From contig JAVBXL010000223.1 of NCBI GenBank assembly GCA_030824575.1, forward strand, positions 1-64,000: a stretch of DNA of 64,000 nucleotides, in the 5' to 3' direction. The notes beneath the pieces are model-generated. The model had not been told where the DNA came from, did not search any database, and was given only the letters and a program-made list of their open reading frames with translations. Positions 43,974 to 52,318 of this stretch are shown in pieces (position 1 is the stretch's first letter; every line of letters begins with the position of its first letter). This stretch comes from a bacterium (GTDB lineage Bacteria; Pseudomonadota; Alphaproteobacteria; Sphingomonadales; Sphingomonadaceae). The position numbers were made by a program, and so were the translations under genes.

Positions 43974-44059
43974 CCTGATGACTGGCCCTGATCACTGGCC
44001 TAGCAGCCGCTTGTCGCAAGATATTGGCAACAACCAGTGATATTTGTCGCAAGATGTAA
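43974..44059 (-). promoter_or_regulatory. regulatory region of the TonB-dependent receptor
   Basis: It contains a 13-bp tandem repeat (CCTGATGACTGGC / CCTGATCACTGGC, 43974-43999), two direct copies of TTGTCGCAAGAT (44011-44022 and 44044-44055), and the composite motif CAGTGAT-N3-TGTCGCAA-N2-TGTAA (44035-44059). The last is shared in sequence and spacing with the region upstream of the RcnB-like gene at 52 kb. No regulator is assigned. Confidence 0.6.
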
Positions 44060-44092
44060 TGCGGTCGGCTGAACGGGGGCTGAGGCCGAAAT

Positions 44093-44761
44093 TCAGGCAG
44101 CATCGTGGAAGATGATGCCGAGCGTATAGCGCACCCCCGACAGCAGGCGGCTGACGCCGTGCCGCATCTGCACCCGATGCACGCCGCGCGCGCCCATCAC
44201 CGGCCGGTCGCGCACCGGGAAGATGATCGCGTCGCCCTGGCCCAGCGGCACCACTTCGGCCCGCGACTGCATCCGCGGCCGCTGCTCGGTCAGGATAAAG
44301 GCGCCGCCGGTAAAGTCGCGCTCAGATTGCGACAGCAGGATCGCGACCTGCAGCGGGAAGATGTGCGGACCATAGACATCCTGGTGCAGCGCGTTCCAGT
44401 CGCCTGCCTCATAGCGCAGCAGCAGCGGGGTCGGCTTGTCCTGCCCGGCCAGCGCGCAGCGGGCCAGGAAATCGGCATGGCGCGCCGGATAGATGTCGCC
44501 CGTCCCCAGCATTGTCGCCCAGCGATTGGCCTGCGCCGCCAGTGCGGGATAGAGGCTTTCCCGCAGCACGGCGATCGGATCGGGCAGCGGATAGGCGCAA
44601 TAGCGATAGCGCCCGCGACCATAGCCATGGCGCGCCATCACCACTTCCTTGCGAAAAGCGCGGGGATCGTCCCACAGCGCGACGATCGCGGCGCATTGGT
44701 CGGGGGAAAGCAAGGCGGGCAGGCGCGCCGCGCCATGGCGGTCGAGATCGGTGAGGTCCAT
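44093..44761 (-). CDS. 2-oxoglutarate/Fe(II)-dependent oxygenase
   Basis: 222 residues with the double-stranded beta-helix oxygenase core. The iron triad is H126-D128 in LHQDVYG and H195 in GVHRVQM, and R211 in VRYTLGIIF is the likely 2-oxoglutarate-binding basic residue. The substrate is unknown; the N-terminal half (KEVVMARHGYGRGRYRYCAYPLPDP) is unlike PiuC or AlkB. It lies upstream of the TonB receptor on the same strand, but that receptor's own regulatory motifs fill the 126-nt gap between them. Confidence 0.8.
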   Translation of the reverse strand: MDLTDLDRHGAARLPALLSPDQCAAIVALWDDPRAFRKEVVMARHGYGRGRYRYCAYPLPDPIAVLRESLYPALAAQANRWATMLGTGDIYPARHADFLARCALAGQDKPTPLLLRYEAGDWNALHQDVYGPHIFPLQVAILLSQSERDFTGGAFILTEQRPRMQSRAEVVPLGQGDAIIFPVRDRPVMGARGVHRVQMRHGVSRLLSGVRYTLGIIFHDAA

Positions 44762-44852
44762 CGGTGCAGAATGGACGGATCGCCTTCACGGGTCATCCCG
44801 CGCCTTGCCTTCAAAGCTTTCCTTCGCCGCCGCCGCTTCCTAGGATGGCGGC

Positions 44853-45794
44853 ATGCACACCCTTTATCCCCCGATCGCCCCCTACGCCTCCGGCCATCTC
44901 GACGTTGGCGAGGGCCATCATGTCTATTGGGAACGGGCCGGTACGCCGGGCACCAAGCCGGCGGTGTTCCTGCATGGCGGGCCGGGCGGCGGCATATCGC
45001 CCGATCATCGCCGCCTGTTCGACCCGGCGCGCTACGATGTGCTGTTGTTCGACCAGCGCGGTTGCGGCCAGTCGACGCCCCATGCGGACCTCAACGCCAA
45101 CACGACCTGGGATCTGGTCGCCGATATCGAGCGGCTGCGCGCGATGATGGGCGTGGAGCGATGGCTGGTGTTCGGCGGTAGCTGGGGATCGACGCTGGCG
45201 CTGGCCTATGCGCAGGCGCATGTCGAACGGGTCACCGAACTGGTTCTGCGCGGTATCTTCACGATCCGCAAACAAGAGATCGACTGGTATTATCAGGAAG
45301 GGGCAAGCCGCATCTATCCCGATAAATGGGAGCGGTTCGTCGCGCCGATCCCACAGGCTGAGCGCGGCGATCTGGTGGCGGCCTATCGCCGCCTGCTGAC
45401 CGGTCCGGATCGGGCGGCGCAGGTCGTGGCGGCGCGGGCGTGGAGCGTGTGGGAAGGGGAGACGATCCGTCTGCTGCCTGACCCGGCGCTATCGGCGACC
45501 CATGATGCGGACGATTTCGCGCTGGCCTTCGCCCGGATCGAAAATCATTATTTCGTTCATGGCGGCTGGCTGGAGGATGGGCAGTTGATCCGCGACGCGG
45601 GCAAGCTTGCGGACATTCCGGGCGTCATCGTGCAGGGCCGATACGACATGGCCTGCCCGGCGGAAACCGCCTGGGCGCTGCACCGCGCCTGGCCGCAGGC
45701 GCGCTTCGAGATGATCGAAGGGGCGGGACATGCCTATAATGAACCGGGAATATTGGACGCGCTGATCCGCGCGACGGATGGGTTTGCGGTTTAG
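44853..45794 (+). CDS. pip: prolyl aminopeptidase
   Basis: 313 residues of the alpha/beta-hydrolase S33 family. The oxyanion motif is HGGPGGG (41-47), and [14 protein letters not shown] is the family fingerprint. The nucleophile is S110 in [10 protein letters not shown], with Asp in [10 protein letters not shown] and His in GAGHAYNEP. It removes N-terminal proline from peptides in the cytoplasm. It is divergent from the oxygenase gene, with a 91-bp gap that must hold both promoters. Confidence 0.95.
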
Positions 45795-45820
45795 GGCGAG
45801 CACCTTTGGCTGAACCCACG

Positions 45821-45961
45821 CCGTTCGTGCTGAGTAGGGGCTGAGCGAAGTCGAAGACCCGTATCGAAGCATCAGACGCCGCGCTGCATCCTTCGATACG
45901 CCATTTGCCCTTCGGTCGTCTTCGACTCCGACTGCGCTCAATGGCTACTCAGGACGAACGG
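45821..45961. repeat. 141-bp inverted-repeat intergenic element (sphingomonad type)
   Basis: The element starts CCGTTCGTGCTGAGTAG and ends CTACTCAGGACGAACGG, with near-complementary ends about 17 bp long. Inside, GTCGAAGACCCGTATCGAAG mirrors CTTCGATACG and CGTCTTCGAC. Repeats with these ends (CCGTTCGTCCTGAGT...) are common between sphingomonad genes. It fills the gap between two converging genes (pip and sixA), where it can fold into a large hairpin. Confidence 0.8.
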
Positions 45962-51496: not shown

Positions 51497-51651
51497 TCGC
51501 AAATCCCGTCAATGGTGCCGGAACATTCCGCTGTCATGGGACGTTCTGCGCATCGGTCCACCCCCCTTTCGGACTGGTGATGTGCTTTGCGCGCGTCATC
51601 GGCCGCGCGCGCCCGGAAACGAGCCGCGCGGCCAATTAGGGCGGTGAATGT

Positions 51652-51690
51652 AAAATGGCCCCAGACTCATCGTCCGGGGCCATTTTCTTT
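51652..51690. terminator. bidirectional terminator after lysK
   Basis: AAAATGGCCCC (51652-51662) pairs with GGGGCCATTTT around a short GAC/GTC inner stem, followed by CTTT. It lies between lysK and the converging RcnB-like gene. Confidence 0.9.
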
Positions 51691-51704
51691 AAGTCTTGCC
51701 TATT

Positions 51705-52175
51705 TTACCAGAAAAAGGCGCGATGGGCGGTGATGACGCGGCCGGTACGCACGTTGACCAGCAGCACGTCGTTATAGTGGCGGACCCAGCGCTGGTTCAC
51801 GCCTGGACGGGTCAAGCGATAGCGGTTGGTGTCAGCGATATAATAGCGCGAGTTGTAATAGGCCGGGCGGAGTTGCGCGCCGGCATTCCACTGGCTGTAG
51901 CGGAAGGGCGCGCGCCAGTTGCCGCCGCGATAGACGTCGCGATGGTTGCGGCGATAGTCGCGCCAGTCCTCGCGCGTTTCCTGGCGGGCCTGGCGAACGT
52001 CCTGACGTTGTTCACGCACGTCGCGGCGGTCGCCATAGCGCTGGGCCTGGCGCAGGTCGCGCTTTTCCTCGCGCAGGTTGCGTTCGCTGCGGCGCGCTTC
52101 GCCGTAAGATTGGGCCGACGCGACGCTGGGTGCGACGGTGGCGGCCAGCAGGCCCAGGATGATGAGTTTACGCAT
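51705..52175 (-). CDS. RcnB-like exported protein (first)
   Basis: 156 residues. The signal peptide (ends SVASAQ) is followed by a charged coiled region rich in R, D, E and Q (EARRSERNLREEKRDLRQAQ ...), then a C-terminal RcnB domain with RYRLTRPGVNQRWVRHYNDVLLVNVRTGRVITAHRAFFW-type wording (positions 118-156; RWVRHYNDVLLVNVRTG key). RcnB in E. coli is a periplasmic protein linked to nickel/cobalt efflux, but these sphingomonad relatives are not functionally defined. The 25-bp motif of the TonB receptor lies 119 nt upstream. Confidence 0.8.
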   Translation of the reverse strand: MRKLIILGLLAATVAPSVASAQSYGEARRSERNLREEKRDLRQAQRYGDRRDVREQRQDVRQARQETREDWRDYRRNHRDVYRGGNWRAPFRYSQWNAGAQLRPAYYNSRYYIADTNRYRLTRPGVNQRWVRHYNDVLLVNVRTGRVITAHRAFFW

Positions 52176-52293
52176 AGAAATTCTCCCATATGCTGTGGCG
52201 GTTGAACCTGTCCGGCAGGACCGGGTTCCCTCGCCTAGGAATGGGTTATGCGATCCGGCGGCTGAACGGCGCGAGAATGAAGCTGTCAGTTTT

Positions 52294-52318
52294 CAGTCAT
52301 TTATGTCGCAAAGTGTAA
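52294..52318 (-). promoter_or_regulatory. composite motif upstream of the first RcnB-like gene
   Basis: CAGTCAT-N3-TGTCGCAA-N2-TGTAA on the plus strand (gene-direction TTACA-N2-TTGCGACA-N3-ATGACTG). The same parts with identical spacing occur upstream of the TonB receptor (44035-44059). It sits in the gap between the oxygenase and the RcnB gene. Confidence 0.6.

Follow-up and report, generated by a model that had tools for sequence, protein, structure and literature searches.

The described systems closest to the one we consider here are UzcRS, ChvGI, CenKR and OmpR/EnvZ, and the comparison concerns a short promoter element shared by a TonB-dependent receptor-like (TBDT-like) gene and a gene for an exported RcnB-family protein (RcnB1) in a 64,000-nucleotide (nt) stretch of DNA from a member of the Sphingomonadaceae (contig JAVBXL010000223.1, positions 1 to 64,000, assembly GCA_030824575.1; referred to below as the window). 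The nearest functional parallel is UzcRS of Caulobacter crescentus, a uranium-, zinc- and copper-responsive system with an OmpR-type regulator reported to target TonB receptors, a NodT-type efflux operon and exported proteins (PMC8963506, PMC12864828), but its CATTAC-N6-TTAA site is absent here and the relevant sections of these papers report no exported EF-hand or RcnB gene in its operon. Caulobacter ChvGI is likewise an envelope regulator of TonB receptors, but its TTGC-N3-GCAA site is found in neither promoter (the sole match in the window is at 13079). CenKR of Rhodobacter sphaeroides includes an OmpR-family regulator of envelope genes which recognises direct-repeat sites, but its TGA-N8-TGA occurs at RcnB1 (52299, in the second conserved promoter block we refer to as array B) and not at the TBDT promoter, and CenKR homologues are reported not to have been found in Sphingomonadales (PMC9275681). 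None of the Caulobacter ChvI, CenR and UzcR consensus sites accounts for both promoters. OmpR and EnvZ provide the best NCBIfam models for our candidate regulator P0001 and its kinase P0002, a receiver plus winged-helix protein and a HAMP kinase respectively, but neither score reaches the curated cut-off (234.4 of 331 bits, an equivalog cut-off, and 184.1 of 415 bits), and in several genera the candidate operon begins with a gene for an EF-hand or RcnB-family protein.

The element shared by the two promoters is a 15-base-pair (bp) unit, WTACA-N2-TTGCGACA, which corresponds to positions 1–15 of the consensus of 38 RcnB1 and 30 TBDT promoters. In the window it has the form TTACA-N2-TTGCGACA and is found on the minus strand as TTACACTTTGCGACA before RcnB1 (52304–52318) and as TTACATCTTGCGACA before the TBDT-like gene (44045–44059), while in other genera the unit is often TTGCGACA-N2-TTGCGACA, a 10-bp direct repeat of the type typical of OmpR-family response regulators. 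We consider it probable, at about three chances in four, that an OmpR-family two-component regulator, most likely P0001, uses this element as its operator; the regulator would be autoregulated and would control a recurring set of genes. The motif, its conservation, the set of genes it precedes, its presence at the promoter of the regulator and its loss together with the regulator can all be read directly from the genomes compared here.

An earlier note had proposed a 25-bp composite pattern at 44035–44059 and 52294–52318, on the coding strand of the respective downstream gene in each case, and we found exact matches in this orientation at both positions. When up to three mismatches were allowed, these two sites were the only matches in the window and in the whole 4.94-Mb genome, and none were found in 100 shuffles; with the retention of the motif at orthologous genes within and beyond the genus, this bears out the view that the matching arrangement was unlikely to be due to chance. 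At the same threshold the 25-mer was found in 74 of 94 Sphingobium genomes compared with three matches for a reversed-pattern control. Loci were fetched for part of these matches and provided 81 distinct sites, with 39 located before RcnB1, 30 before a TBDT-like gene, three before other classes and nine before none, so that 72 of the 81 were upstream of a gene of the recurring set (a class gene below). A scan of named contigs returned 15 stretches (12 Sphingobium and one each from Sphingomonadaceae, Proteobacteria and Desulfuromonadaceae), and the last of these (L072) has no class gene downstream. We rejected the 25-bp pattern as a single operator because its 3' part is not the same in the TBDT promoters of the genus as in the RcnB1 promoters, with the ATSACTG tail general at RcnB1 only and most of the 30 TBDT promoters deviating there. 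A family-wide search with TTGCGACANNNATGACTGNNNNCTGAC was also set aside, as the 45 matches in 40 of 298 genomes (compared with 21 control matches in 15 genomes) were mostly at the three-mismatch limit, and matches outside the genus are mostly chance-like. A variant among the 25-mer matches, TTACC...TTGCGACG...ATCATTG or ATCACTG, makes up a third class and recurs in four genomes (L085, L096 twice, L099 and L104) with no class gene downstream.

The gene classes preceded by the element are RcnB1, the TBDT-like gene, a NodT-type efflux gene (TIGR01845), an RND adaptor of the HlyD family, a second RcnB-family gene (PF11776) and an operon encoding an OmpR-family regulator and kinase, and one of these was found downstream of 60 of 65 distinct core sites (the loci were partly hand-chosen). 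Among 61 genus genomes the 15-bp core gave 265 matches with up to one mismatch compared with 108 for controls, with more matches than control in 48 genomes and fewer in ten. In seven genomes from six other genera, exact KACANNTTGCGACA occurred 19 times compared with a single control match, and 16 of the 19 were before class genes; six of these, at regulator operons, had already served to train the matrix described below, and the ten new sites preceded three TBDT, three NodT, two adaptor and two RcnB1 genes. Five classes have a site in the genome containing the window (RcnB1, RcnB3 in C144, NodT in C69, TBDT and the regulator operon in C118), and these rank 1, 2, 5, 6 and 8 by matrix among 37 core matches.

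The C118 operon, which is located outside the window, encodes an exported EF-hand protein, P0001 (receiver PF00072 and winged-helix Trans_reg_C PF00486, both above cut-off) and the histidine kinase P0002. P0001 has a match at E up to 1e-60 in 88 of 129 family genomes. We rejected a lanmodulin identity for the EF-hand protein, which scored 58.7 of 135 bits with that model. In the 28 best-scoring non-genus loci, KACANNTTGCGACA was found upstream of the regulator in every case with up to one mismatch and was exact in 21, where 0.0024 exact matches were expected, and the element there is often TTGCGACA-N2-TTGCGACA. In three loci from three other genera (L278, L281 and L287) the site and the regulator are separated by an RcnB-family gene, and in L272 and L274 the site is some 380 nt before the regulator. 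Among 29 genus regulator loci, 24 have the element with up to one mismatch, four with two and one with four, the last in a genome that is 60% complete. Many regulator promoters also have, further downstream, a GCGACA or GGGACA block with its end about 9 bp upstream of a CATAA-like element. With a matrix built from the 28 non-genus promoters, the two window sites ranked first and second in a scan of the window, at 20.6 and 15.0 bits, with the third match at 8.6 bits, and the first score was never reached in 20 randomised windows. The independence of this test is incomplete, since the training sites had been chosen with a pattern that came from the window motif.

Site and regulator also tend to be lost together. 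We tested 40 genus genomes, about half of them picked as motif-poor, and found the regulator in 30. None of the ten genomes lacking the regulator has a strict 25-bp site before a class gene, and a strict match is present in 23 of the 30 having it, although for six of the 23 (G042, G043, G055, G086, G090 and G093) the class was assigned by the 25-mer itself, with the locus unfetched (Fisher 2e-5; this value and the next are guides only, because the genomes are related and the counts are not independent). Similarly, the RcnB1 site was retained with up to one mismatch in four of five regulator-positive genomes compared with one of nine regulator-negative genomes (Fisher 0.023; this comparison omits G003, which has a paralogue only, and G051, which has no RcnB1 match).

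Besides the relatedness of the genomes and the origin of the matrix, several observations weigh against P0001 acting at this element. The loose core by itself proves nothing, because with up to two mismatches it gave 37 matches in the genome containing the window and the reversed pattern gave the same number, and 25 of the 30 such matches with loci precede no class gene. The matrix score of the second window site was reached in four of the 20 randomised windows. G058 (450 contigs) has an RcnB1 site with no regulator match, G049 has the regulator with a decayed site, and seven of the 30 regulator-positive genomes have no strict 25-bp match. The lack of enrichment of loose matches in a single genome is what might be expected if the element were due to chance or were a core promoter feature alone, but we regard this as almost negligible in probability given the absence of matches in the shuffles and the conservation at orthologous genes.

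We think it unlikely that a different OmpR-family regulator acts at the element, with the EF-hand/RcnB–regulator–kinase operon as no more than one of its targets. There are 15 proteins with PF00486 domains encoded in the same genome, and a site before a regulator gene is no proof of autoregulation; but among these 15 loci only that of P0001 has the element within one mismatch (the others, like the controls, have it at two or three), and the RcnB1 site is mostly absent from genomes without a P0001-type regulator. ChvI had been suggested in the earlier note, and a sphingomonad ChvI would fit the reported control of TonB-receptor genes by Caulobacter ChvI (PMC9731502, PMC12864828) and the occurrence of the S. 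meliloti-type GCC-N8-GCC once near each site. We consider this very unlikely, since those matches (starting at 44080 and 52270) are outside the conserved operator, the Caulobacter-type site is missing from both promoters, and the Caulobacter ChvG model gives P0002 a score of 73 out of 740 bits. It is highly improbable that a UzcR/CusR-like heavy-metal regulator is responsible: Caulobacter UzcR is reported to target TonB receptors and acrAB-nodT (PMC12864828, PMC8963506) and the TBDT site starts with CATTAC, but the full UzcR site is at neither promoter and the CztR/SilR/CopR model gives P0001 a score of 128 out of 279 bits. The assignment to P0001 remains the reading we prefer.

Both promoters contain further conserved features. 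The TBDT-like gene (41150–43948, minus strand) likely begins with a GTG, as the start reading VRFSA... is conserved in orthologues, and the motif is more likely 86 nt from this GTG, at 43948, than the 69 nt given earlier. The consensus of the 30 aligned promoters has TTGCCA-N5-TTGCGACA after the unit at positions 30–48 and gCTAg at 56–60, and TTGC recurs at positions 8, 30 and 41. Within the window TTGCCA-N5-TTGCGACA is a second half-site block (44012–44030, minus strand) and corresponds to the partial copy noted earlier at 44011, which is real and has its TTGCGACA conserved across the 30 promoters (positions 41–48); the gCTAg element (43999–44004, minus strand) is likely the -10. The encoded protein has 933 amino acids and shares 72–97% identity with six partial orthologues. 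Searches of Pfam, NCBIfam and PHROGs assigned it to no family, whether of the plug and barrel type or any other, and it had no match amongst PDB sequences at E up to 1. We retain the TBDT name because the N-terminal stretch resembles, in our judgement, a plug domain. A fold predicted from the single sequence was of no use (predicted local distance difference test score, 33.9). In one genome (G008; L219, ~1979–2100) a TBDT-type promoter is followed by an apparent transposase frame rather than a receptor gene, and this is probably an insertion.

RcnB1 (51705–52175, minus strand; PF11776) encodes an exported protein with the start at 52175 given earlier, and has 2OG-Fe(II)-type oxygenases as neighbours. 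In the consensus of 38 promoters the unit is followed by ATGACTG-N4-CTGAC-N5-CATTC-N7-GTTCAG, with CATA at position 69. In the window the minus strand carries the conserved ATGACTG tail (52294–52300), which is in 11-bp phase with array B (CTGAC-N5-CATTC-N7-GTTCAG, 52262–52289), and CATAAC (52245–52250), which is likely the -10. Array B is kept with one to three mismatches in nine of nine regulator-negative genomes, and because it is retained at RcnB1 where the regulator is missing, it probably belongs to a second, different regulator, which would make the RcnB1 promoter probably a junction of two regulators. The sole other exact genomic copy of array B (30230–30257, minus strand) precedes a gene for a small exported basic protein (29851–30162, minus strand) with no family match, and a copy with two mismatches (33318–33345, minus strand) is located between a beta-barrel protein gene (33373–33882, plus strand) and a gene on the opposite strand. 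Between array B and RcnB1 there is an EcfG-like GGAAC-N17-GTT (52205–52229, minus strand), and GGAAC-N15..18-GTT is present in 23 of the 38 RcnB1 promoters but in none of 38 shuffled sequences (one shuffle each). The reported EcfG consensus is GGAAC-N16-CGTT (PMC7083833), and perhaps the general stress sigma factor also acts here.

Elsewhere in the window TTGCGACA alone occurs seven times compared with a shuffle mean of 2.27. The copy noted earlier at about 54255 exists, but we rejected it as a further site because L064 and L069, the closest relatives, do not conserve it upstream of RcnB2, and judged from the alignments both this copy and the ATSACTG tail are outside the shared operator. Upstream of RcnB2, five of the ten relatives with an RcnB2 start (L063, L068, L074, L075 and L076) have TCAG-N2-TTGCGACA about 60 nt before the gene, and the window has a degenerate form of this.

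Binding, activation and the signal sensed can be proposed on these comparisons. The ancestral operator was likely the 10-bp direct repeat TTGCGACA-N2-TTGCGACA, with the first half now WTACA in Sphingobium, and P0001 would bind at its own promoter and at those of RcnB1, the TBDT-like gene, the NodT-type efflux gene, the RND adaptor and the second RcnB-family gene. The 10-bp repeat and the TTGC positions in the TBDT promoter have the 10–11 bp period of an OmpR/PhoB-family direct-repeat operator and are consistent with OmpR-family dimers bound next to one another. The second half-site block in the regulator, TBDT and RcnB3 promoters stops about 7–9 bp short of a -10-like element, and PhoB-type activators replace the -35 at such a position; activation is therefore the likelier mode, and we favour activation with positive autoregulation. 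The stimulus perceived by the kinase may come from the envelope or from metal ions, and the periplasmic protein encoded in the same operon perhaps takes part in sensing it. Nickel RNA sequencing of Sphingobium ba1 lends no support to a nickel signal, as RcnB goes unmentioned in the main text of that paper (PMC5557971). The same study reports induction of an OmpR-family regulator that has a CopS-type kinase and may or may not be P0001.

The earlier observation is thus confirmed, and its interpretation, of one regulator controlling an envelope regulon, is partly supported and now more specific: comparison supports it well, since the element is kept at orthologous genes within and beyond the genus and tracks one response-regulator gene, but the support does not extend to the 25-bp unit or the 54255 copy. 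We did not find the system described among the papers listed from the open-licence literature searched. More tentatively, and with some doubt on our part, sphingomonads may use a lineage-specific, autoregulated envelope-stress system in which the exported EF-hand or RcnB-family protein encoded by the first gene of the operon would be a periplasmic ion sensor or a brake on the kinase, and in which the operator TTGCGACA-N2-TTGCGACA would tie uptake at the outer membrane, efflux and RcnB-type periplasmic proteins into one regulon. The finding is of moderate interest because it offers a testable envelope regulon, with a candidate regulator, operator and target list, for the Sphingomonadales, a group reported to be without CenKR (PMC9275681), and it gives RcnB-family proteins a regulatory context.

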